Made by a program: the position numbers and the translations under genes
The notes under the pieces: model-generated
Database searches by the model: none
Told to the model about the DNA's origin: nothing
What the model saw: only the letters and a program-made list of their open reading frames with translations
Assembly: GCA_944393295.1 (NCBI GenBank)
Contig: CALXZR010000090.1
Coordinates: forward strand, 1 to 17,928
DNA length: 17,928 bases
Direction: 5' to 3'
Origin: an uncultured Clostridia bacterium
GTDB taxonomy: Bacteria; Bacillota_A; Clostridia; TANB77; CAG-508
Shown here: positions 7,976-16,287 of the stretch, piece after piece
Layout of the letters: every line of letters starts with the position of its first letter
Numbering within the stretch: position 1 is the first letter of the stretch

Positions 7976-10753
7976 ATGAACGAAAGAATAGAAGAGATTG
8001 ATAGTTTAGAAACATCAGGAATTCTTGAGTCTCGTCAACATGAGAATAATGAAAACGAAGAAAATTCTCATCGTACACTAGACGAATTAAGAACTATAGA
8101 AGAATTAAAAAGGGATAAAATTATGGAAGCTGTACAAACAAGTACGGTTTATAAAAATTTGTCTGAAATACCTGGAATTAATATGAAAGAGATATTAGAG
8201 TCTATAGTTGAAATGTATATGAATTTAGATGCTATAACTCCAGGAAATCCAGAATATATAGACTTGCAATCTTTAAATTTAATAATCAACTCTGTTAAAG
8301 AATATGAGATAGATACTGTACAAAACGGAATTGTAACTAATGATGATGGAACAATAGATAGAATTTCTTCAGCAGAACAACTAAGAGATATGAGTGGAAT
8401 ACCAGTATCTGAAATTTTAGCTCAAAATAAAGGTGAAGCTACATTAGATATTTCTAATGTAAGAAAAGATATGGGTGCAGAGCAGAAGATGTTTGATTTG
8501 ATTCTAGGTTCTTGTGATGGAGATGAACAAAAAGCTAATGAGGTATATAAAGGATATGAAAGACATGAAGCTGCTGCAAAAAAATTTATGGAAAAATATA
8601 AAGATATTGAAAAACAACAAGAAGAAAAACAGGAAAATCCAGAAGGTCAGGAAAAAAAATCCCATATAAGATATAAAGTAAAACGTATGGAAATTAAAGG
8701 TGCTAAATTTAATCAAAATAAAGATATTATGACTCATAAATTTAATACAATGGACACTTTAGAAGAAGCTGAATTTATACATTTAGGATATGAGTATAAT
8801 ATTTTTGATAAAAATATTAGTGAAGAAGACAAACTTTCTTTTATTAAAGAAATAGAGCAACTAAGAGAGCAAAATCCTAATAATAGGTTTATAGAAAAGA
8901 TATTAGATAAAGATAAAAATATAAGCTTTGAAAGAGCGGTTTTATTTGCAAAGAAATTTGAAAGAAACTATAATAATAATAAAAATAAAAACGACCTTCA
9001 ATACTATTTGGGTGATGTAGATGAAAACGATTCTTTAGAATTACGTAAAATGGATAGATTTAAAAAACGTGAATTTTTAACAGATATCTATATAGCAGCT
9101 ATGAGTGGCGATAAAGAAAGAATGGCTTTAGCTACAGAATTGTTGTTAAAAACAAAATCAAATGGTGTAAACGTATTTTCTGAAAATTTAGGAACTGTTA
9201 CAAAAGATATGGCATTGAATATCATAAATGCAGAATATGGAACAAAATTTGATCACGATAGTACTTGGTTGAAAGATATTATTGAAACTAGAAAGTTAAA
9301 TTCTATAACAGCAGACAAAAAGATAGATAATGTAAAATATGCTATAATGAATTCAGATGGAATAGAAAGACCAGTAGAAAGCCAAAAAATATTATCAAAA
9401 GAAAAAGACAAAGTAAAAATTTTAAAAGATCAAATTAGAGAACTTGGGATGGGAAGCTATGTGCGTGAAAAAGATGAAGCTATATCACAAGTATTAAATA
9501 AATTAGAAATAAATGGTATAGACTGTGCAAATGCTTTAACAGTTAAATTATTATATATTAAATTAAGCGAAAGAGATTATGCTTTAGTAAATGGAAGAAT
9601 GCCACAAAATAAGGAAGAAAGAATAGAAGCATATAAAGATGTATCAGCACATACTAATTCAAAAGCAGTATATATATTTATGAAAAACAACCCAGCAATT
9701 TTTGGAGATTTTATTAGCGAAATTCAGCAAATGGACGTTAGTAAAGTAGAAGAAATGTTAAGTCAGAATAGGCTTAAATCAGTGAAGGGAAATATATCTG
9801 TAGATAGATTAATGCGTGAAGTTGATTATGCAGGTCTAAAAGGCGCAGAAAAAGATTTAGAAACTTCACAATTAATGGTTGAATTAAAAGCAAAAATAGA
9901 TAACTTAAAAAAGGATGAAAAATTATCTAATAAAAGAAAAATATCTCCACAAGATAAAGCAGAAGCAAAAGAAAGATTTGAAGAGAATAAAGTAGAAGTA
10001 AAAGAATTACTTGCAAAATTACCTATAGGATATAGAAGTTCTGCTTTATGTATGAGAATTTTAACTACAGATTTAAATAAACGTACTCAACAAGAATTAT
10101 TAGAAGGTATAAAAACTTCTATTGAAAAAGATAAAGAAAAACCACTAGAAGAGGGAAAAGAAACAGCAATAGATAAATTTAAGAAATGGAGAGAAGTCAG
10201 AAAAGCATCTAGAGATACTGAGAAAATACTAAAAGATATATTAAATGGAAATAGAGAAGTAATAGCAACAAAAGATATTGCTAATTTAGGTTTAGAAGAT
10301 AAAGTAAAAATGTATCGAGAAAGAACAGAAAGAATTCGAAATGGCTTACCAGAAGTAGAACCAATGTTAGAGCCAGTTAAACAAGATATAACAGAACCTA
10401 AAGAAAATAAATTTTTAAAATTTTTACAAAATACTTTTGATATGGCAGGAAAAGCTGGAGAAACTATAGTAAATAGTTCTCAAAGAGCGGCAGAAGGTAT
10501 AGGAAAGTTTGTAAACAATTTAGGAAAGACGCCTAAAGATAAAGCTGTTAAAACAGCAGAAGAAAAATTACCAAAAGATGAAGCTTCTAAAGTAGAAAAA
10601 ACTTATAGAGAGATAGAAAATAGATCAGATGAATGGAAAGTATCACAAGAACAATTAAAGGCTAATAATGCAAGAGCTCAAAAAGAAGAAACAGTTAAAG
10701 TAGAACAAAAATTAGAAGCACATACAGGACCAGAAGATACAGGAGGAAGATAA
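7976..10753 (+). CDS. Unrecognised 925-residue soluble helical protein
   Basis: I do not recognise a family. The protein is long, highly charged and apparently helical, with no signal peptide or membrane span, so it is probably cytoplasmic. Visible parts are an acidic, Asn/Glu-rich N-terminus (1-50), a Gln/Glu/Lys-rich linker (209-230), a long globular-looking helical middle (250-700), a Pro/Glu-rich hinge (791-809), an amphipathic stretch (about 812-850) and a charged coiled-coil-like tail (855-915). No nucleotide-binding loop, zinc cluster or catalytic signature stands out. Base and codon use match the neighbours, so recent transfer is not indicated. The stop TAA abuts the trmFO ATG, and the last codons contain the trmFO SD. 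It interrupts the usual topA-trmFO adjacency. Function unknown; that it is a real gene is near certain from length, promoter and SD. Confidence 0.9.
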   Translation: MNERIEEIDSLETSGILESRQHENNENEENSHRTLDELRTIEELKRDKIMEAVQTSTVYKNLSEIPGINMKEILESIVEMYMNLDAITPGNPEYIDLQSLNLIINSVKEYEIDTVQNGIVTNDDGTIDRISSAEQLRDMSGIPVSEILAQNKGEATLDISNVRKDMGAEQKMFDLILGSCDGDEQKANEVYKGYERHEAAAKKFMEKYKDIEKQQEEKQENPEGQEKKSHIRYKVKRMEIKGAKFNQNKDIMTHKFNTMDTLEEAEFIHLGYEYNIFDKNISEEDKLSFIKEIEQLREQNPNNRFIEKILDKDKNISFERAVLFAKKFERNYNNNKNKNDLQYYLGDVDENDSLELRKMDRFKKREFLTDIYIAAMSGDKERMALATELLLKTKSNGVNVFSENLGTVTKDMALNIINAEYGTKFDHDSTWLKDIIETRKLNSITADKKIDNVKYAIMNSDGIERPVESQKILSKEKDKVKILKDQIRELGMGSYVREKDEAISQVLNKLEINGIDCANALTVKLLYIKLSERDYALVNGRMPQNKEERIEAYKDVSAHTNSKAVYIFMKNNPAIFGDFISEIQQMDVSKVEEMLSQNRLKSVKGNISVDRLMREVDYAGLKGAEKDLETSQLMVELKAKIDNLKKDEKLSNKRKISPQDKAEAKERFEENKVEVKELLAKLPIGYRSSALCMRILTTDLNKRTQQELLEGIKTSIEKDKEKPLEEGKETAIDKFKKWREVRKASRDTEKILKDILNGNREVIATKDIANLGLEDKVKMYRERTERIRNGLPEVEPMLEPVKQDITEPKENKFLKFLQNTFDMAGKAGETIVNSSQRAAEGIGKFVNNLGKTPKDKAVKTAEEKLPKDEASKVEKTYREIENRSDEWKVSQEQLKANNARAQKEETVKVEQKLEAHTGPEDTGGR

Positions 10754-12103
10754 ATGAATAAAGAAGCTATTGTAATTGGAGGAGGACTTGCCGGTACAGA
10801 AGCAGCTTTGCAATTGGCAAAAAGAGGAATTCATGTAAAACTATATGAAATGAAACCTAAAAAGTTTTCTGAGGCACATACAAACGAAAACTTAGCAGAA
10901 ATTGTTTGTAGTAATTCCTTTAAATCAAATCTTCTAACAAATGCTTGTGGTTTATTAAAAGAAGAAATGAGAAGACTGGGCTCATATTTAATTCCTATAG
11001 CAGATAATACAAGTGTTCCGGCAGGACAAGCTTTAGCTGTTGATAGAGATGAATTTTCTAGAAGAGTAACAAAAATTGTTAATAACAATGAAAATATAGA
11101 GATAATTAGAGAAGAAATAAAAGAATTGCCAAAAGACTCATACATAATTATTGCAACAGGACCACTTACATCTACTAAATTAGCTGAAAATATAAAAAAA
11201 TTATTAGGAGAAGAACAATTATATTTCTATGATGCTGCAGCACCAATAATAGAAAAAGATTCAATAGATTTTAATGTAGCTTTTTTTGGAAATAGATATG
11301 AACAAGAAAGAAAAAAAGACGAAGCTATTGATATTTGGCTAGAAAGAATAGAAAATCAGGAGAAAAGCTATATAAATCTTCCCATGAATAAAGAAGAATA
11401 TGAAAAATTTTATAATGAACTAATAAATGCAGAAATTGCTAATCTGCATGATTTTGAAAAAAAAGAAATTTTTGAAGGCTGTATGCCAATAGAAGTAATG
11501 GCAAAAAGAGGAATAGAGACTTTAAGATATGGACCACTAAAACCTGTGGGATTTACAGATAAAAGAACAGGATATAGACCATATGCAATTGTTCAATTAA
11601 GGCAAGATAATAAAGAAGCTACTTTATATAATATAGTAGGTTTTCAAACAAATTTAAAATATCCAGAACAAAAAAGAGTATTTAGAATGATACCTGGATT
11701 AGAAAAAGCTAATTTTATGAAATATGGTGTAATGCATAGAAATACTTATATACAATCTACAAAAGTATTAAACAGTAAATATCAATTAAAAGAAAACAAT
11801 AATATTTATTTTGCTGGACAAATAACAGGAGTAGAGGGATATGTAGAGTCAATTTCTTCTGGTTTAGTAGCAGGAATAAATTTAGCAAATCAAATATTAG
11901 GAAAAGAAGAACTTATATTACCTAAAGAAACAGTAATTGGAGCTTTAGCAGGATATATATCTACTGAAAGAGAAAATTTTCAGCCTATGAATGCAAATTT
12001 TGGAATATTGCCACAACTTCCAGAAAAAATTAAAGATAAAAAACAAAAATATTCTAAATTGGCAGAAATAAGTCTTCAAAAAATAGCAATTTTAAAAGTT
12101 TAA
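10754..12103 (+). CDS. trmFO: Folate-dependent tRNA m5U54 methyltransferase
   Basis: TrmFO makes ribothymidine at position 54 of tRNA using methylene-tetrahydrofolate and FAD. The 449 residues open with the FAD-binding IGGGLAGTEAA (8-18). They contain AEIVCSNSFKS with Cys52 and FEGCMPIEVMA with Cys243, the counterpart of the catalytic Cys of the B. subtilis enzyme. The C-terminal part has GVEGYVES and FQPMNANFGILP. The protein is slightly longer than the usual 435 or so. The extra residues appear to lie at about 182-203, a charged segment between GNRYE and the SYINLPMNKEEYE motif. Its SD AGGAGG (10741-10746) is inside the end of the upstream gene, and stop and start touch (TAAATG), so translation is coupled. 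No clear terminator follows the gene. Confidence 0.96.
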   Translation: MNKEAIVIGGGLAGTEAALQLAKRGIHVKLYEMKPKKFSEAHTNENLAEIVCSNSFKSNLLTNACGLLKEEMRRLGSYLIPIADNTSVPAGQALAVDRDEFSRRVTKIVNNNENIEIIREEIKELPKDSYIIIATGPLTSTKLAENIKKLLGEEQLYFYDAAAPIIEKDSIDFNVAFFGNRYEQERKKDEAIDIWLERIENQEKSYINLPMNKEEYEKFYNELINAEIANLHDFEKKEIFEGCMPIEVMAKRGIETLRYGPLKPVGFTDKRTGYRPYAIVQLRQDNKEATLYNIVGFQTNLKYPEQKRVFRMIPGLEKANFMKYGVMHRNTYIQSTKVLNSKYQLKENNNIYFAGQITGVEGYVESISSGLVAGINLANQILGKEELILPKETVIGALAGYISTERENFQPMNANFGILPQLPEKIKDKKQKYSKLAEISLQKIAILKV

Positions 12104-12125
12104 AACCATATAAAATCAACAAATA

Positions 12126-12170
12126 ATTACAATGTAAAAAAATTATGTAAAACTATTGAAACATTGTAAT
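12126..12170. repeat. 10-bp inverted repeat overlapping the small-ORF promoter
   Basis: ATTACAATGT (12126-12135) and its exact complement ACATTGTAAT (12161-12170) are 25 nt apart. The right arm begins on the last base of the -35 element and runs into the spacer, a position suited to repressor binding. No T-run follows, so it is a poor terminator for trmFO. Confidence 0.55.
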
Positions 12171-12184
12171 AAATATGTTATAAT
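12156..12184 (+). promoter_or_regulatory. Strong extended -10 promoter of the coiled-coil operon
   Basis: TTGAAA and a perfect TATAAT are separated by 17 nt, and TGT immediately before TATAAT gives an extended -10. It is one of the two strongest promoter matches in the window. Transcription would start near 12191, leaving about 60 nt of leader before the 35-codon gene. Confidence 0.8.
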
Positions 12185-12250
12185 GTTAACAGTTGTAATT
12201 ATGCGGAAATATAGAAAAATGAATAAATACATAAGAAAGGAGCTTTGAGA

Positions 12251-12358
12251 ATGGATACAAAACTAAACCAAAAAGGAAAAGAGCTAATTGAAGAAATAGC
12301 TGAAACAAGTGCTAAACTAGCAAGAATGGAAGCAGAAATAGAAGCGGAAAAAGAATAA
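12251..12358 (+). CDS. 35-residue helical small protein
   Basis: A 35-codon gene has a good SD, AAAGGAG at 12236-12242, eight nt before its ATG, and a strong promoter just upstream. The product begins MDTKLNQKGKELIEEIAE and ends in a Glu/Ala/Lys run (EAEIEAEKE). It is predicted to be one long charged helix, with hydrophobic residues (Leu12, Ile16, Leu23, Met26, Ile30) spaced roughly as heptads, so it could pair with another coiled coil. It is the first gene of the operon, and the SD for the 833-codon gene begins 14 nt after its stop. I recognise no family. It may be a functional partner of the large coiled-coil protein or mainly a translated leader; the sequence does not decide. Confidence 0.75.
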   Translation: MDTKLNQKGKELIEEIAETSAKLARMEAEIEAEKE

Positions 12359-12374
12359 AAGAAAAAATAAAGAA

Positions 12375-12410
12375 GGAGGTAATTTAAGTAACGAACAAGG
12401 TTACTTAAAT
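12375..12410 (+). promoter_or_regulatory. Ribosome binding site followed by a hairpin within its spacer
   Basis: The only good SD for the next gene, GGAGG at 12375-12379, is 39 nt from the ATG at 12419. A perfect 11-bp stem (12382-12392 with 12400-12410) with loop GAACAAG fills the gap. When folded it leaves about 10 nt between SD and start, near the usual optimum. An in-frame stop at 12410-12412 rules out an upstream start in that frame. Confidence 0.75.
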
Positions 12411-12418
12411 AGAGAAAA

Positions 12419-14920
12419 ATGGCAACTTTACAAGAATTAAATGAAAATTTACAAGAGATAAGAAGAGATTTAGGTTCTTTTGAAGATCAAAAAAGACAAA
12501 TTGTAGAAGAATTTAGAACTGCAAAAGCAAGTGTTAAAGATTTAAACAAAAACATAAGAGAGTATACTACTCAAATTGATGCATTAAATGTAGCTATAAA
12601 TATGCAAACAGATGATGCAATGAAAGCAAACTTAGAAAGCCAAAGAGATGCTTTAAATAAAACTTTACAAGAGGCAACAGCTGAAAGAGATAGATTAATT
12701 GCTTTAGGAGCTTCAAAAAGCGAAGCTGAAGATAACATTAGAACTGCAAATGCGAAGATGCAAAGTATTATAGCAGAATTTGCTAGTGATCCTAGAATTA
12801 ATGCTCATTTACAAGAAGCTATTGAAATTAAATACGATGAAGAAATAGAAGCAAAAAGAAAAGAGAAAAATTCTCAAGAAGAATTGAATAAAAAGTTTTC
12901 TTTAGATTTAAAAAATGATGAAGTTTTTGGTGGATTAGTACAAAAATTAGCAGAAAGCTATAAAGAAGTACTTAAAATTCCAAATATAATATTAGATGAA
13001 GAAACTAAAAAGAAAGCAGCAACTACAAGAGGTACATTCACAAAAAATCTTAACGCTTTAAGAAAAGCTATTTCAGCTAGACCAGAATATGCAAATATAC
13101 ACTTAGCTGAAGAGGATTTTGAAGCAATGATAGCAGGTCCAAATGCAGAAGGTGAATATGAGATACCAACTTTAAAAGAAAATGTTGAAACAATTGATAA
13201 AGCTACAGCTAATTTAGAAGAAAGAAAAGTAAAAATTATTTCAAAGATTAAAGATGCTTTAGTTTCAGAAAGAATAGATGAAAATGAAGTAGCAAGATTA
13301 GATGGAGAAATTGCTAATAAAGATCAAGAAATTAGTGCAGAAACAACAAAAGAACAAGCTGCAGATACAGAAATTGCAAGACTTCAAGGTGAAATTGATG
13401 CATTAAAAAATACATTTACAACAGTTGATGTAACAGCTCAAGAGCAAGCTTTGCAAGATGCAAAAACTAAATTAAGTGAGATAGAAGCAAAAATAAACGA
13501 AAATACAACAAAAACTGCTGGATTAGATACTGAAATTTCTAATTTAGCAACACAAATAGCAGCAATTGGTTTTGATCAAACAAGATTTGACACATTAAAT
13601 CAAGAAGCTGATATTCCAGCTGAATTAACTGACAAAGAAAATACTGCAAAAACAGAATTTGAAGCAGCAAAACAAGCTTTAAAAGCTAAAGGATATATTA
13701 GCGAAGATTTATATCCAGAAATAAGAAATTATACAAGACAAATTAATATATTTAGAAACGCTGATGCAGATGTTAGAAAAGCATTTTTAGAATGTGAAAC
13801 AAATGATTCTCCAGAAAGTAGAGAGGCTTTAAAAAATGCTATGACAGTTTATAAAAGTGCATCAGAAACTTTAACAACATTACCTGGAATGGAAGGACTA
13901 ACAGTAGAAAACTGGCATGATTGGTTAGTAAATGATTTAAGAAAGAAATCAAGAGAAGGAACTTTAGAAGATTATTACTATGATGAAACTGCTGATATGA
14001 GATTAGATGGAGTAAATAACGAATATAAAAGATTATTCAAAAAATCTCATACATTAGATTCTGCTTTCACAGCTTCTAAAGATGAATTAAAGAAAGTAAA
14101 AGATATGCAAGAAGCTTTCTTGAAAGGTGAAAATGTTGAATATGCAAATGTTGAACCTGTTTTAAATTCATATAAAGATTCTATTACAAACTTATTTAAT
14201 GCTTTAAAAGATAAAGGTGCAAAAGGTTTAGCAAAAGTAGAAGATTTATGGGGAAAACTACAAGGAAAACTTGCAAAAATTGGTATATTCCAAAAATTAT
14301 TTGGAAGTAAAGCAAATACTCCTCAAAAAATAGCAGGAACAAAACCAAAAGCTGAAAGAAATGAATTAAATGAATTAGTTTCTAAATTTGAAACTAAAAA
14401 ATCAGCACTAAAAGATGCTGAAAAAGAGATTGAAGATCATGCAAAAACAAAATTAGGTGAACAAAAATATAATGAATTAAAAGATTTAAGAGAAAAAGAA
14501 GCTAAAGCAAAAAGTAAAACTGCAGAAAAAACTGCTAAAGAAGCAGAAAAAGCTAATTTAGGAACAGAATATGCTACTTTAGTTAATGATAAAACAGCAG
14601 CTGAAGCAGAAGTTCAAACAAAACAACAAGAGCTAGCTAATGCTAGAGCTAATGGAACTGCAACTCCAGAACAACAAGCAAAATTAAATCAATTAGAAAC
14701 AGAAAAAACTGCACAAGAAACAGAAAAACAAAATGCTTCACAGGCAAGAGCAGCAGCAGAACAAGAAAAAGCTAGATTAGAACAAGAAAAAGCAAACTTA
14801 CAACCTAGAAGACCAGACCAAGTTGTTAAAAATTCAAGAGAAATAGCACATGGAAAAGGTAAAGAATTAGAAGATGCAACTTTAGATAGCTTTGAGAAAG
14901 CAGTAGATGAAGAAAGATAA
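12419..14920 (+). CDS. Unrecognised 833-residue coiled-coil protein
   Basis: I do not recognise a specific family. The product is a long, Ala/Glu/Lys-rich protein with no signal peptide or membrane span, and looks cytoplasmic. Coiled-coil-like tracts lie at about 1-125, 255-390 and 640-795. Between them are two more globular segments (about 150-250 and 400-590), and an amphipathic Lys-rich stretch (about 590-632) follows the second. The C-terminus (796-833) is charged. SMC-type ATPase motifs are not visible, so resemblance to SMC or myosin-like proteins would come only from heptads. The ATG is forced by an in-frame stop 7 nt upstream, and the SD is separated from it by a hairpin. The gene lies between the 35-codon gene and a terminator-like hairpin. 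Codon use matches the host. A structural or scaffold role is only a guess. Confidence 0.92.
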   Translation: MATLQELNENLQEIRRDLGSFEDQKRQIVEEFRTAKASVKDLNKNIREYTTQIDALNVAINMQTDDAMKANLESQRDALNKTLQEATAERDRLIALGASKSEAEDNIRTANAKMQSIIAEFASDPRINAHLQEAIEIKYDEEIEAKRKEKNSQEELNKKFSLDLKNDEVFGGLVQKLAESYKEVLKIPNIILDEETKKKAATTRGTFTKNLNALRKAISARPEYANIHLAEEDFEAMIAGPNAEGEYEIPTLKENVETIDKATANLEERKVKIISKIKDALVSERIDENEVARLDGEIANKDQEISAETTKEQAADTEIARLQGEIDALKNTFTTVDVTAQEQALQDAKTKLSEIEAKINENTTKTAGLDTEISNLATQIAAIGFDQTRFDTLNQEADIPAELTDKENTAKTEFEAAKQALKAKGYISEDLYPEIRNYTRQINIFRNADADVRKAFLECETNDSPESREALKNAMTVYKSASETLTTLPGMEGLTVENWHDWLVNDLRKKSREGTLEDYYYDETADMRLDGVNNEYKRLFKKSHTLDSAFTASKDELKKVKDMQEAFLKGENVEYANVEPVLNSYKDSITNLFNALKDKGAKGLAKVEDLWGKLQGKLAKIGIFQKLFGSKANTPQKIAGTKPKAERNELNELVSKFETKKSALKDAEKEIEDHAKTKLGEQKYNELKDLREKEAKAKSKTAEKTAKEAEKANLGTEYATLVNDKTAAEAEVQTKQQELANARANGTATPEQQAKLNQLETEKTAQETEKQNASQARAAAEQEKARLEQEKANLQPRRPDQVVKNSREIAHGKGKELEDATLDSFEKAVDEER

Positions 14921-14935
14921 TAATATACATAATCT

Positions 14936-14970
14936 AAAAGGCTATATTTAAGGTATAGCCTTTTAATTTT
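14936..14970 (+). terminator. Intra-operon terminator or attenuator
   Basis: A perfect 11-bp stem (14936-14946 with 14954-14964) with a seven-base loop runs into TTTTAATTTT, 16 nt after the 833-codon gene. The next gene starts only 25 nt after the T-run, with no convincing promoter between. Partial readthrough is likely, lowering expression of the downstream gene. Confidence 0.8.
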
Positions 14971-14994
14971 AATATGAACTAGAGGTAATATATT

Positions 14995-15816
14995 ATGCCA
15001 CAAAGTATAAGTGAAAAGAAAAGAATTTGTTTTCAAGCCTTAGGATTGACAGAAAAAGAAGCAGGAAATATTTTACTAGCAGAGTTAGTAAGACTTGAAA
15101 ATGATGAAAGATTACCAGATATAAAAGGTATTAGTATACAAGTTGCAAATGACGAACAAAGAAGACTATTAGAAACTATATTGCTATTATATAAAGGTGA
15201 AAATAATGGATTTGCTACAGTATTAGATGTTCCACAAAATGTTAAAATAAAAGTAGGAACAAATGAAAATGGACAAGAAAATTCAAATAATATAATAAAT
15301 CTTAATAATTTTGATTATCAAAAGGAAAAAGAAAAATTAGTAAATAGACTTAATTCATCTATACTTGGAAACTTAGATATTAGAGATATATTAGAACAAC
15401 AAGGAACTGAAAATAATACATTAAATAACTCTAAATACGAAAGTGAAATAAAGGAAATTGAGCAGCAAATTAAACATGTTCAGGACAAAATTGTAGGAGA
15501 TCAATTTAGTTTTTTTAGTATGTTTAAGCAAGGCTCAATTGCAAAAGGTCAAATAGAATTAAATCAATTAAAAAAGGATTTAAAAGCTAAGAAAGAAGAA
15601 TATGAATCAGAAACATCTTTTAAGAAATTTTCAGAAAAAAGAAGACTAACAAGAATAAAGACTTTAAGTGAAAAAGGAAAAAAACTTGAAGGAATAAAGT
15701 TTTTATTTACTGGTAAAAAAGAAAGAGTAATTACAAGTAGAGATGAAAAAGGAAGAATAAGAAGAACTTTTGTGGAAACAGATACAGAAGAACCTTTTGT
15801 AGAAGAACAAAAATAA
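14995..15816 (+). CDS. Unrecognised 273-residue charged protein
   Basis: I do not recognise a family. The N-terminal part (1-95) looks like a small mixed alpha/beta domain, including an ILLAELVRLE helix and a short strand-rich stretch near 72-90. A polar Asn-rich linker follows (about 88-106), then charged helices (106-135 and 146-167) and a Lys-rich helical region (185-235). The acidic C-terminus ends EEPFVEEQK. There is no signal peptide or membrane span. The SD is AGAGG at 14981-14985, nine nt before the ATG. It lies between the terminator of the 833-codon gene and a strong terminator of its own, so it is probably the last, weakly expressed gene of that operon. Composition matches the host. 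Function unknown. Confidence 0.85.
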   Translation: MPQSISEKKRICFQALGLTEKEAGNILLAELVRLENDERLPDIKGISIQVANDEQRRLLETILLLYKGENNGFATVLDVPQNVKIKVGTNENGQENSNNIINLNNFDYQKEKEKLVNRLNSSILGNLDIRDILEQQGTENNTLNNSKYESEIKEIEQQIKHVQDKIVGDQFSFFSMFKQGSIAKGQIELNQLKKDLKAKKEEYESETSFKKFSEKRRLTRIKTLSEKGKKLEGIKFLFTGKKERVITSRDEKGRIRRTFVETDTEEPFVEEQK

Positions 15817-15891: not shown

Positions 15892-15952
15892 ACCTGTGTG
15901 TTTTTATTTCGAGACTGTTTTATTCGACTTAAAGACTAAAATAAACACAGGT
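15892..15952 (+). promoter_or_regulatory. Leader hairpin before the 78-codon gene
   Basis: ACCTGTGT (15892-15899) is exactly complementary to ACACAGGT (15945-15952), and after a four-base bulge six more pairs form (15904-15909 with 15939-15944). The hairpin occupies nearly all of the predicted 5' leader and leaves the SD AAAGGAG (15957-15963) single-stranded. Such a structure could protect the 5' end or be a regulatory site; I match it to no known riboswitch. Confidence 0.6.
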
Positions 15953-15968
15953 ACCGAAAGGAGAGCAT

Positions 15969-16205
15969 ATGAAGGACATGAATCCGATACTTCGGAACTT
16001 GCTTGTAACAGTTGGTGTTGCAGCAGCAGTAGTGGTACTGGGAGTTGCCGCAAAATACGGCGGTCAGTTAGTGGACTATATCCTGAAAAATGGAACTAAA
16101 ACACTTCTGGTGGTTGCCGTTGTGACGTTGGTGTCGGCACTGGTTTTTGGAGCAATTGAAATGATTGTTTCGAACAAAAAGAAATCAAACGTAAACGACG
16201 ACTGA
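15969..16205 (+). CDS. 78-residue two-helix membrane protein, GC-rich outlier
   Basis: I do not recognise a family. The product has two hydrophobic segments, about 11-28 (LLVTVGVAAAVVVLGVAA) and 44-67, joined by a short polar loop, and a Lys/Asn/Asp tail (69-78). It is predicted to be a small integral membrane protein. Holins and subunits of secretion or conjugation machines share this general size and layout, but nothing specific supports either. The SD AAAGGAG is 5 nt before the ATG. G+C is 44% by hand count (104 of 237), against roughly 25-28% around it. It uses CTG, GTG, GCC, TCG, CCG, ACG and CGG codons that neighbours mostly avoid, and is the only gene here ending in TGA. Both point to acquisition from elsewhere or strong selection on the RNA. 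It has its own promoter, leader hairpin and terminator. Confidence 0.8.
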   Translation: MKDMNPILRNLLVTVGVAAAVVVLGVAAKYGGQLVDYILKNGTKTLLVVAVVTLVSALVFGAIEMIVSNKKKSNVNDD

Positions 16206-16214
16206 CCAAGACCA

Positions 16215-16230
16215 GCTCAGAATTCTGAGC
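16215..16230. repeat. 16-bp perfect palindrome after the 78-codon gene
   Basis: GCTCAGAATTCTGAGC is a perfect dyad 10 nt after the TGA stop and before the terminator. With no spare bases it can form only a tight hairpin, but it could also be a protein binding site or an element end. Flanking GACC segments (16204-16207 and 16239-16242) could compete for pairing with the terminator arm. Confidence 0.6.
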
Positions 16231-16237
16231 AAAAGGG

Positions 16238-16287
16238 AGACCAAATGGAAAAGGCGAAAGCTTTAGACTGTTTGGTCTTTTTCTTTT
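16238..16287 (+). terminator. Terminator of the 78-codon gene
   Basis: AGACCAAA (16238-16245) pairs with TTTGGTCT (16271-16278). An inner five-pair stem (16251-16255 with 16260-16264) is capped by a GAAA tetraloop, and TTTTTCTTTT follows. The transcript from the promoter to here would be about 400 nt. Confidence 0.85.

Follow-up and report, generated by a model that had tools for sequence, protein, structure and literature searches.

The start codon of an 833-codon gene from an uncultured Clostridia bacterium lies 39 nt downstream of its Shine-Dalgarno (SD) sequence, and a perfect hairpin fills the gap. We analyzed this leader in a 17,928-nt stretch of DNA (contig CALXZR010000090.1; the whole stretch is hereafter the window) and compared it with the leaders of related genes in other genomes. 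We judge it likely, with a probability of roughly 0.8, that the hairpin is the folded spacer of a split ribosome-binding site like those of phage T4 genes 38 and 25, here on a bacterial chromosome. We favor this reading because the position of the hairpin is conserved, its sequence has changed with some paired substitutions, and long gaps are found only where there is a hairpin.

The SD sequence, GGAGG, occupies positions 12375–12379 and the ATG positions 12419–12421, all features of the leader being on the forward strand. The stem-loop was found both by folding and by an inverted-repeat search, and consists of a 5′ arm (ATTTAAGTAAC, 12382–12392), a loop (GAACAAG, 12393–12399) whose sequence is not conserved in relatives, and a 3′ arm (GTTACTTAAAT, 12400–12410). 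The arms form 11 bp with 100% complementarity and 7 nt between them, and once folded they leave 2 + 8 = 10 unpaired nt separating SD from ATG. The last base of the 3′ arm is also the first base of a TAG (12410–12412) that shares its frame with the ATG, so the frame upstream of the start is closed. The original prediction, made from the window alone, had described exactly this geometry: the 39-nt gap, the 11-bp stem with its 7-nt loop, the roughly 10 nt left after folding and the in-frame stop at 12410. It had also stated that no other SD is near, which is true of the window leader, as the duplex of the anti-SD with the 8 nt that precede the ATG reaches only −2.9 kcal/mol, compared with −12.1 kcal/mol for the GGAGG region (the anti-SD behind these and all later duplex energies is an assumed sequence, not this organism's own). 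A protein search with the 833-aa product returned 38 matches with E-values no higher than 0.001, including the window's own protein, and 22 of them were aligned. The first four residues (M1 A2 T3 L4) are invariant in these 22 proteins, which indicates that the ATG at 12419 is well placed; two of the 22 (P0023 and P0024) carry a 7-residue extension.

We assessed whether the hairpin stands out from its surroundings. An 81-nt stretch around it folds at −11.9 kcal/mol, with weak extra pairs that reach the SD and the ATG, and none of 200 dinucleotide shuffles was as stable (z −4.9). When the 39-nt spacer was shuffled 5000 times, an equally good stem at the same position arose with p ≤ 0.0002, and the SD-hairpin-ATG pattern, which occurs once in the window, was absent from 200 shuffles of the window. 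The stability of the longer stretch 12190–12480 (291 nt) was not unusual overall (z −1.7, 12 shuffles as good), and the hairpin was retained in both its minimum-energy and its centroid folds.

The close homologues in the protein search (P0002–P0038) are mostly known as proteins without DNA context, and one scan of viral contigs for homologues of the 833-aa protein gave no locus. A single locus came from a scan of named genomes: a metagenome-assembled genome of an uncultured Clostridia bacterium (G001) encodes a homologue with 25% identity, in the same gene order as in the window and with a 9-bp hairpin between SD and ATG. G001 served as the center of further searches for relatives of the 833-aa protein, of the gene at 10754–12103, which lies 5′ of a putative promoter and which we take to be trmFO, and of a second coiled-coil family first seen 3′ of trmFO in other genomes. 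The sets searched overlap: they comprise 96 relatives, 385 genomes of the order, to which both profiles were applied, and 390 and 380 genomes of the family. The 833-aa profile matched 31 of the 385 order genomes (4 used; 27 at E 1e-6 to 1e-3 left out) and 35 of the 390 family genomes (10 at E < 1e-55 kept; 25 at E 1e-6 to 1e-3 left out). The second-family profile, which was built from hairpin-bearing members, matched 9 of the 385 order genomes (6 kept, 3 weak ones left out) and 12 of the 380 family genomes (8 kept; 4 at E 1e-4 to 5e-4 left out). One member outside its matches, G009, was added from the trmFO loci through BLASTP similarity to G038 (35%). For trmFO itself, 92 of the 96 genomes matched, and the downstream DNA was scanned in 70 of these (two stretches ended by contig ends), with 22 left out. 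Profile comparison gave no convincing homology between the 833-aa family and the second family, with a probability of 13.5% although the E-value was 0.0021.

The same layout was present in 15 leaders, belonging to 6 of the 11 members of the 833-aa family that were examined (the window, G001, G044, G029, G046 and G023) and to all nine examined members of the second family (G009, G034, G038, G035, G003, G161, G400, G011 and G437). A detector of GGAGG, stem and start codon, run on the window and the first set of loci, identified ten such leaders and two further sites, for one of which three starts were listed; five more hairpin leaders came from protein searches. Nine of the 70 genomes scanned have the layout 3′ of trmFO, and in the remainder the position is taken by different genes or the SD is an ordinary one. 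For nine of the relatives, protein homology had led to the locus before the leader was inspected (G001, G044, G029, G046, G003, G161, G400, G437 and G011). The dimensions vary within narrow limits: stems of 7–11 bp, loops of 3–8 nt and, in 15/15 leaders, 1–3 nt before the stem and 8–12 nt after it, so that 9–14 nt are left once folded. The raw gap between SD and ATG is 30–43 nt in the 13 leaders measured. Two leaders have a variant SD in place of GGAGG (GGGGG in G400, GGGAG in G437). Shuffling the spacers of 13 leaders (all except G011 and G437) gave an equally good stem in place with p between 0.0002 and 0.011 in every case, and the mean pair probability, computed with 60 nt of context on each side, was at least 0.79 in 13 of the 15 stems.

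The stems share a shape while their sequences differ. We found no common loop or stem sequence across the 15 leaders, and when arms were swapped between leaders only 727 of 1678 positions (43%) could pair. An alignment of ten leaders with MAFFT did not line up the stems; covariation was therefore counted by script, in the stem register that gave the most identical pairs. Pairs changed on both sides numbered 2 of 11 between G029 and G046 (one GC to AT, one TA to CG), 2 of 7 between G437 and G011, 3 of 8 between G400 and G161, and 2 of 11 between the window and G044. Paired changes in the spacers of related genomes, to which the original prediction had looked as a check, are thus present in some close pairs, with the order of SD, hairpin and ATG kept. 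Because relatives keep the hairpin while the stem sequence changes, its shape rather than its sequence appears to be preserved by selection.

The hairpin-free members of the 833-aa family provide a natural control. In these five of the 11 examined members (G051, G013, G047, G041 and G016), the SD lies 6–10 nt from the ATG. A midpoint-rooted tree of 19 rows groups them in a single clade (support 100/100) that excludes the six members with a hairpin and eight proteins from databases, the latter represented by protein sequence only; in this tree G041 fills 40% of the columns, and G023 and G044 have long branches. Ordinary spacing is also the rule in the G029 genome, where 272 of 398 GGAGG-to-ATG gaps (2–59 nt searched) measure 4–10 nt, with a peak at 7; some of the remaining gaps start from GGAGG motifs that occur by chance within genes. 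Since the hairpin-free members are one clade with ordinary spacing, we infer that hairpin and long gap were gained or lost as a unit. Homologues without the stem and with an ordinary SD, which the original prediction had named as a finding that would speak against it, therefore do exist; yet gap length and hairpin change together, as the idea predicts. One hairpin-free homologue (locus L149, G041:C6) is broken by in-frame stops, one TGA and one TAA.

These comparisons suggest a simple mechanism. The 30S subunit would pair with GGAGG at 12375, and the 11-bp hairpin would fold away 29 nt and leave 10, so that the start codon could reach the P site with SD and AUG sitting together on the 30S. If left unfolded, the 39-nt gap would greatly exceed normal SD spacing, and translation should therefore proceed from the folded form. 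Initiation would then take place on the folded form and opening of the stem would lower translation, with folding being constitutive rather than regulated.

Several observations weigh against a folded spacer. The perfect pairing of each leader's own arms is a product of the detector's construction, and five leaders (G023, G009, G034, G035 and G038) were first noticed through their hairpin, which biases that part of the set. The trio G009, G034 and G038 has no pair changed on both sides, only one-sided T-A/T-G changes. The stem is doubtful in context for G001 (mean pair probability 0.41) and G011 (0.11), and the stability of the 83-nt G001 leader is unremarkable (z −1.4, matched by 16 of 200 shuffles). 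Neither the SD nor the ATG is predicted to be completely accessible: in the window, the SD is unpaired with a predicted probability of 0.71 and the ATG with one of 0.60, and across the 15 leaders these values range from 0.28 to 0.99 and from 0.09 to 0.82, respectively. In three of the 15 (G001, G003 and G400), a weak SD (AAGG or AAGGA, −5.6 to −6.2 kcal/mol) lies a few nucleotides 5′ of the ATG and could suffice alone. The 9–14 nt left after folding exceed the usual 7, as would be expected if the path from SD to AUG crosses the base of the helix. Finally, the start of the G044 gene is uncertain, as two in-frame open ATGs lie within its gap. In that leader (L004, 1457–1501), one of these ATGs abuts the SD and the other is in the loop; the 7-residue extension of P0023 and P0024 may come from a loop ATG of this kind.

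We considered whether such hairpins arise by chance in AT-rich leaders. A search of 1.17 Mb of the G029 genome returned nine pattern matches, of which this locus is just one; three of the others lie inside longer open reading frames (ORFs), three have, by our reading, an ordinary start near the SD, and two are plausible. Under the same loose settings, decoy 5-mers matched as well, with 8 matches at 1116 sites in 388 kb of G029 compared with 3 at 287 for GGAGG, a further point against our reading. Under strict settings, in the 1.91 Mb of fetched sequence, a set enriched for this locus type, there were 18 distinct matches at 1441 GGAGG sites (12 at this locus type and 6 elsewhere), compared with 7 matches at 12,409 sites for eight decoy 5-mers. 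Together with the 15 leaders at one locus type, their fixed geometry and some paired changes, this leaves chance with next to no probability. A feature of the DNA or of transcription, such as an operator, attenuator, terminator or mobile repeat, would account for a perfect inverted repeat. However, the repeat is present in a single copy within the window, the stem is not followed by a T-run (AGAGAAAA lies 3′ of it), and the hairpin is not among the six terminator-like sites found in 11900–15100; loop length and arm sequence also vary between relatives, which speaks against an operator. We regard this explanation as very improbable.

Two further alternatives concern translation itself. The hairpin could be a control switch: once opened or covered, whether by temperature, a helicase, a small RNA or a protein, it would leave the SD 39 nt away and stop translation. 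The geometry would allow this, with a gap of 10 nt when folded and 39 nt when not, and in T4, mutations that destabilize the structure reduce initiation (PMC3014915). Against it stand the varied loops (3–8 nt) and the lack of any loop or stem sequence common to the 15 leaders, the absence of Rfam matches at the gathering score across the window, the position of the SD outside the stem, and predicted half-melting at temperatures of at least 72°C in 14 of the 15 spacers (83°C in the window), with the remaining one predicted not to be half-melted even at 94°C. In RNA thermometers, the SD or AUG is held in a helix, and physiological temperatures melt it; we therefore rejected a thermometer, as the SD is outside the stem and the window spacer is predicted to half-melt at 83°C. 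A known riboswitch or leader family likewise finds no support, given the lack of Rfam matches. Temperature sensing is thus unlikely, as is a specific protein site, because shape is the only thing common to the whole set, and a switch of any kind seems improbable to us. The comparison thus supports one part of the original prediction, a hairpin acting as in T4 gene 38 (through its position, the paired changes and the link between gap and hairpin), and lends nothing to the other, control by temperature or a bound protein.

Alternatively, GGAGG and the hairpin may not be needed for the start: ribosomes might reach it by way of the A-rich leader, from a weak SD close by or by re-initiating downstream of a short ORF, with GGAGG serving as a standby site. 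The weak proximal SD of 3 of the 15 leaders would fit, as would the short ORF (35–59 codons) that lies upstream of the large coiled-coil gene in all 15 and ends 44–75 nt before its ATG; structured upstream standby sites that bind ribosomes have also been studied (PMC3936740). However, 12 of the 15 leaders have no good proximal SD, a standby site needs no near-constant flanks of 1–3 and 8–12 nt around a stem, and the hairpin-free relatives carry the same type of SD at 6–10 nt. The short ORF also precedes the large gene in those five relatives (our script detected it in three, one only as an internal start). We consider a start independent of the GGAGG-hairpin geometry unlikely, and prefer the folded spacer. 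A more far-reaching proposal is that folded-spacer initiation is a built-in, recurring strategy of this group, with the hairpin as a distance switch, perhaps set by the upstream short protein, that tunes coiled-coil output without covering SD or AUG; this we offer as a speculation, doubtful on present evidence.

The two plausible sites elsewhere in G029 precede genes that we take to be of RNHCP type and PAP2-like. The former (L107, 14311–14349, with the same gene in L213) lies 3′ of what is presumably a uridine-kinase-like gene; by eye, its layout was not seen in the other 29 loci inspected (from 30 of 44 matching genomes), many of which have an SD-like motif at ordinary distance. Upstream of the PAP2-like gene (L135, 7292–7328; also L247, L253 and L262), AAGGAGG lies inside the end of what we assume is xseB, some 30–40 nt before the ATG, and a possible 7–11 bp hairpin is present in four genomes (30 of 39 matching genomes inspected). 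This candidate is the weaker, as it is mixed with coding constraint, and coding constraint and coupling are not separated there.

The 833-codon gene (12419–14920, forward strand) is probably the second gene of a two-gene transcript, because a promoter-like site precedes the leader, a terminator-like hairpin follows the gene and the two ORFs lie between. The putative promoter (TTGAAA-17 nt-TATAAT, 12156–12184, forward strand) has 11 of 12 consensus matches and a TG before the −10 element, and is the best of 18 promoter-like sites in 11900–15100 (shuffles: 12.5, sd 3.5); similar motifs were seen by eye 5′ of the short ORF in several relatives. The short ORF, read from the sequence at 12251–12358 (forward strand), spans 35 codons from its ATG, is charged and has its own SD. 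Its counterparts in the 14 hairpin-bearing relatives have 37–59 codons, with starts chosen by script, and differ in appearance between the 833-aa and second coiled-coil families. The transcript would end at the intrinsic-terminator-like hairpin at 14935–14965 (forward strand), which was found by both a terminator scan and a repeat search and has a 12-bp perfect stem with 7 nt between its arms, followed by ATTTTAATAT. The 833-aa product is predicted to be mostly helical: an AlphaFold2 model consists mainly of long helices (mean predicted local distance difference test score 87.8, predicted template modeling score 0.42). Pfam and NCBIfam searches of the product gave only sub-threshold matches (DUF7856, SMC_prok_A) and thus no known domain above cut-off.

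Elsewhere in the window, neither Pfam nor NCBIfam gave a match at E 0.01 for the 925-aa (7976–10753) and 273-aa (14995–15816) proteins, and a 960-aa counterpart of the former occupies the equivalent position before trmFO in locus L001. In the region 15892–16280, a 78-codon membrane-like ORF (15969–16205), which by eye looks GC-richer than its surroundings and has sub-threshold family matches only, follows an imperfect inverted repeat (15892–15905/15939–15952).

Layouts of this kind matter for annotation as well as for translation, because gene callers that want a close SD can misplace such starts, as the extension of P0023 and P0024 may show. In the leaders described here, the layout occurs on bacterial chromosomes and in two different gene families, and has persisted while the proteins diverged widely and the stems underwent compensating changes. 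They amount to a natural mutagenesis series, which suggests selection on the geometry of the mRNA and not on sequence alone. The stem-loop of the window leader is located wholly between SD and AUG, whereas the hairpin of the E. coli thrS leader reportedly is not. Likewise a bacterial chromosomal leader, thrS contains large RNA structures and has been named a split ribosome-binding site (PMC3936740); it differs in being described in terms of upstream standby-site modules. The described cases that we found of a hairpin setting the distance between SD and AUG are two phage T4 genes (PMC3014915), and in the part of the open-access literature covered, with most subscription journals outside its scope, we noticed no bacterial chromosomal SD-hairpin-AUG case with comparative support. 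As proposed for the window, structure shortens the gap of T4 gene 38, from 22 to 5 nt (PMC3014915), although this is a phage gene with a shorter gap and a shorter folded spacing. T4 gene 25 is closer, with a hairpin between SD and AUG that reduces the gap from 27 to 11 nt, compared with 39 to 10 nt here; close relatives retain that hairpin and distant ones lack it, similarly to what we observe (PMC3014915). Mutations that weaken the structure lower initiation at these T4 split sites, and the gene 25 case, a single gene in a phage, was studied by mutation, a lacZ reporter and dimethyl sulfate probing (PMC3014915). Unlike T4 gene 25, the layout reported here, known from sequence comparison, belongs to bacterial chromosomes and to two protein families, in which the sequence of the stem has been largely replaced.

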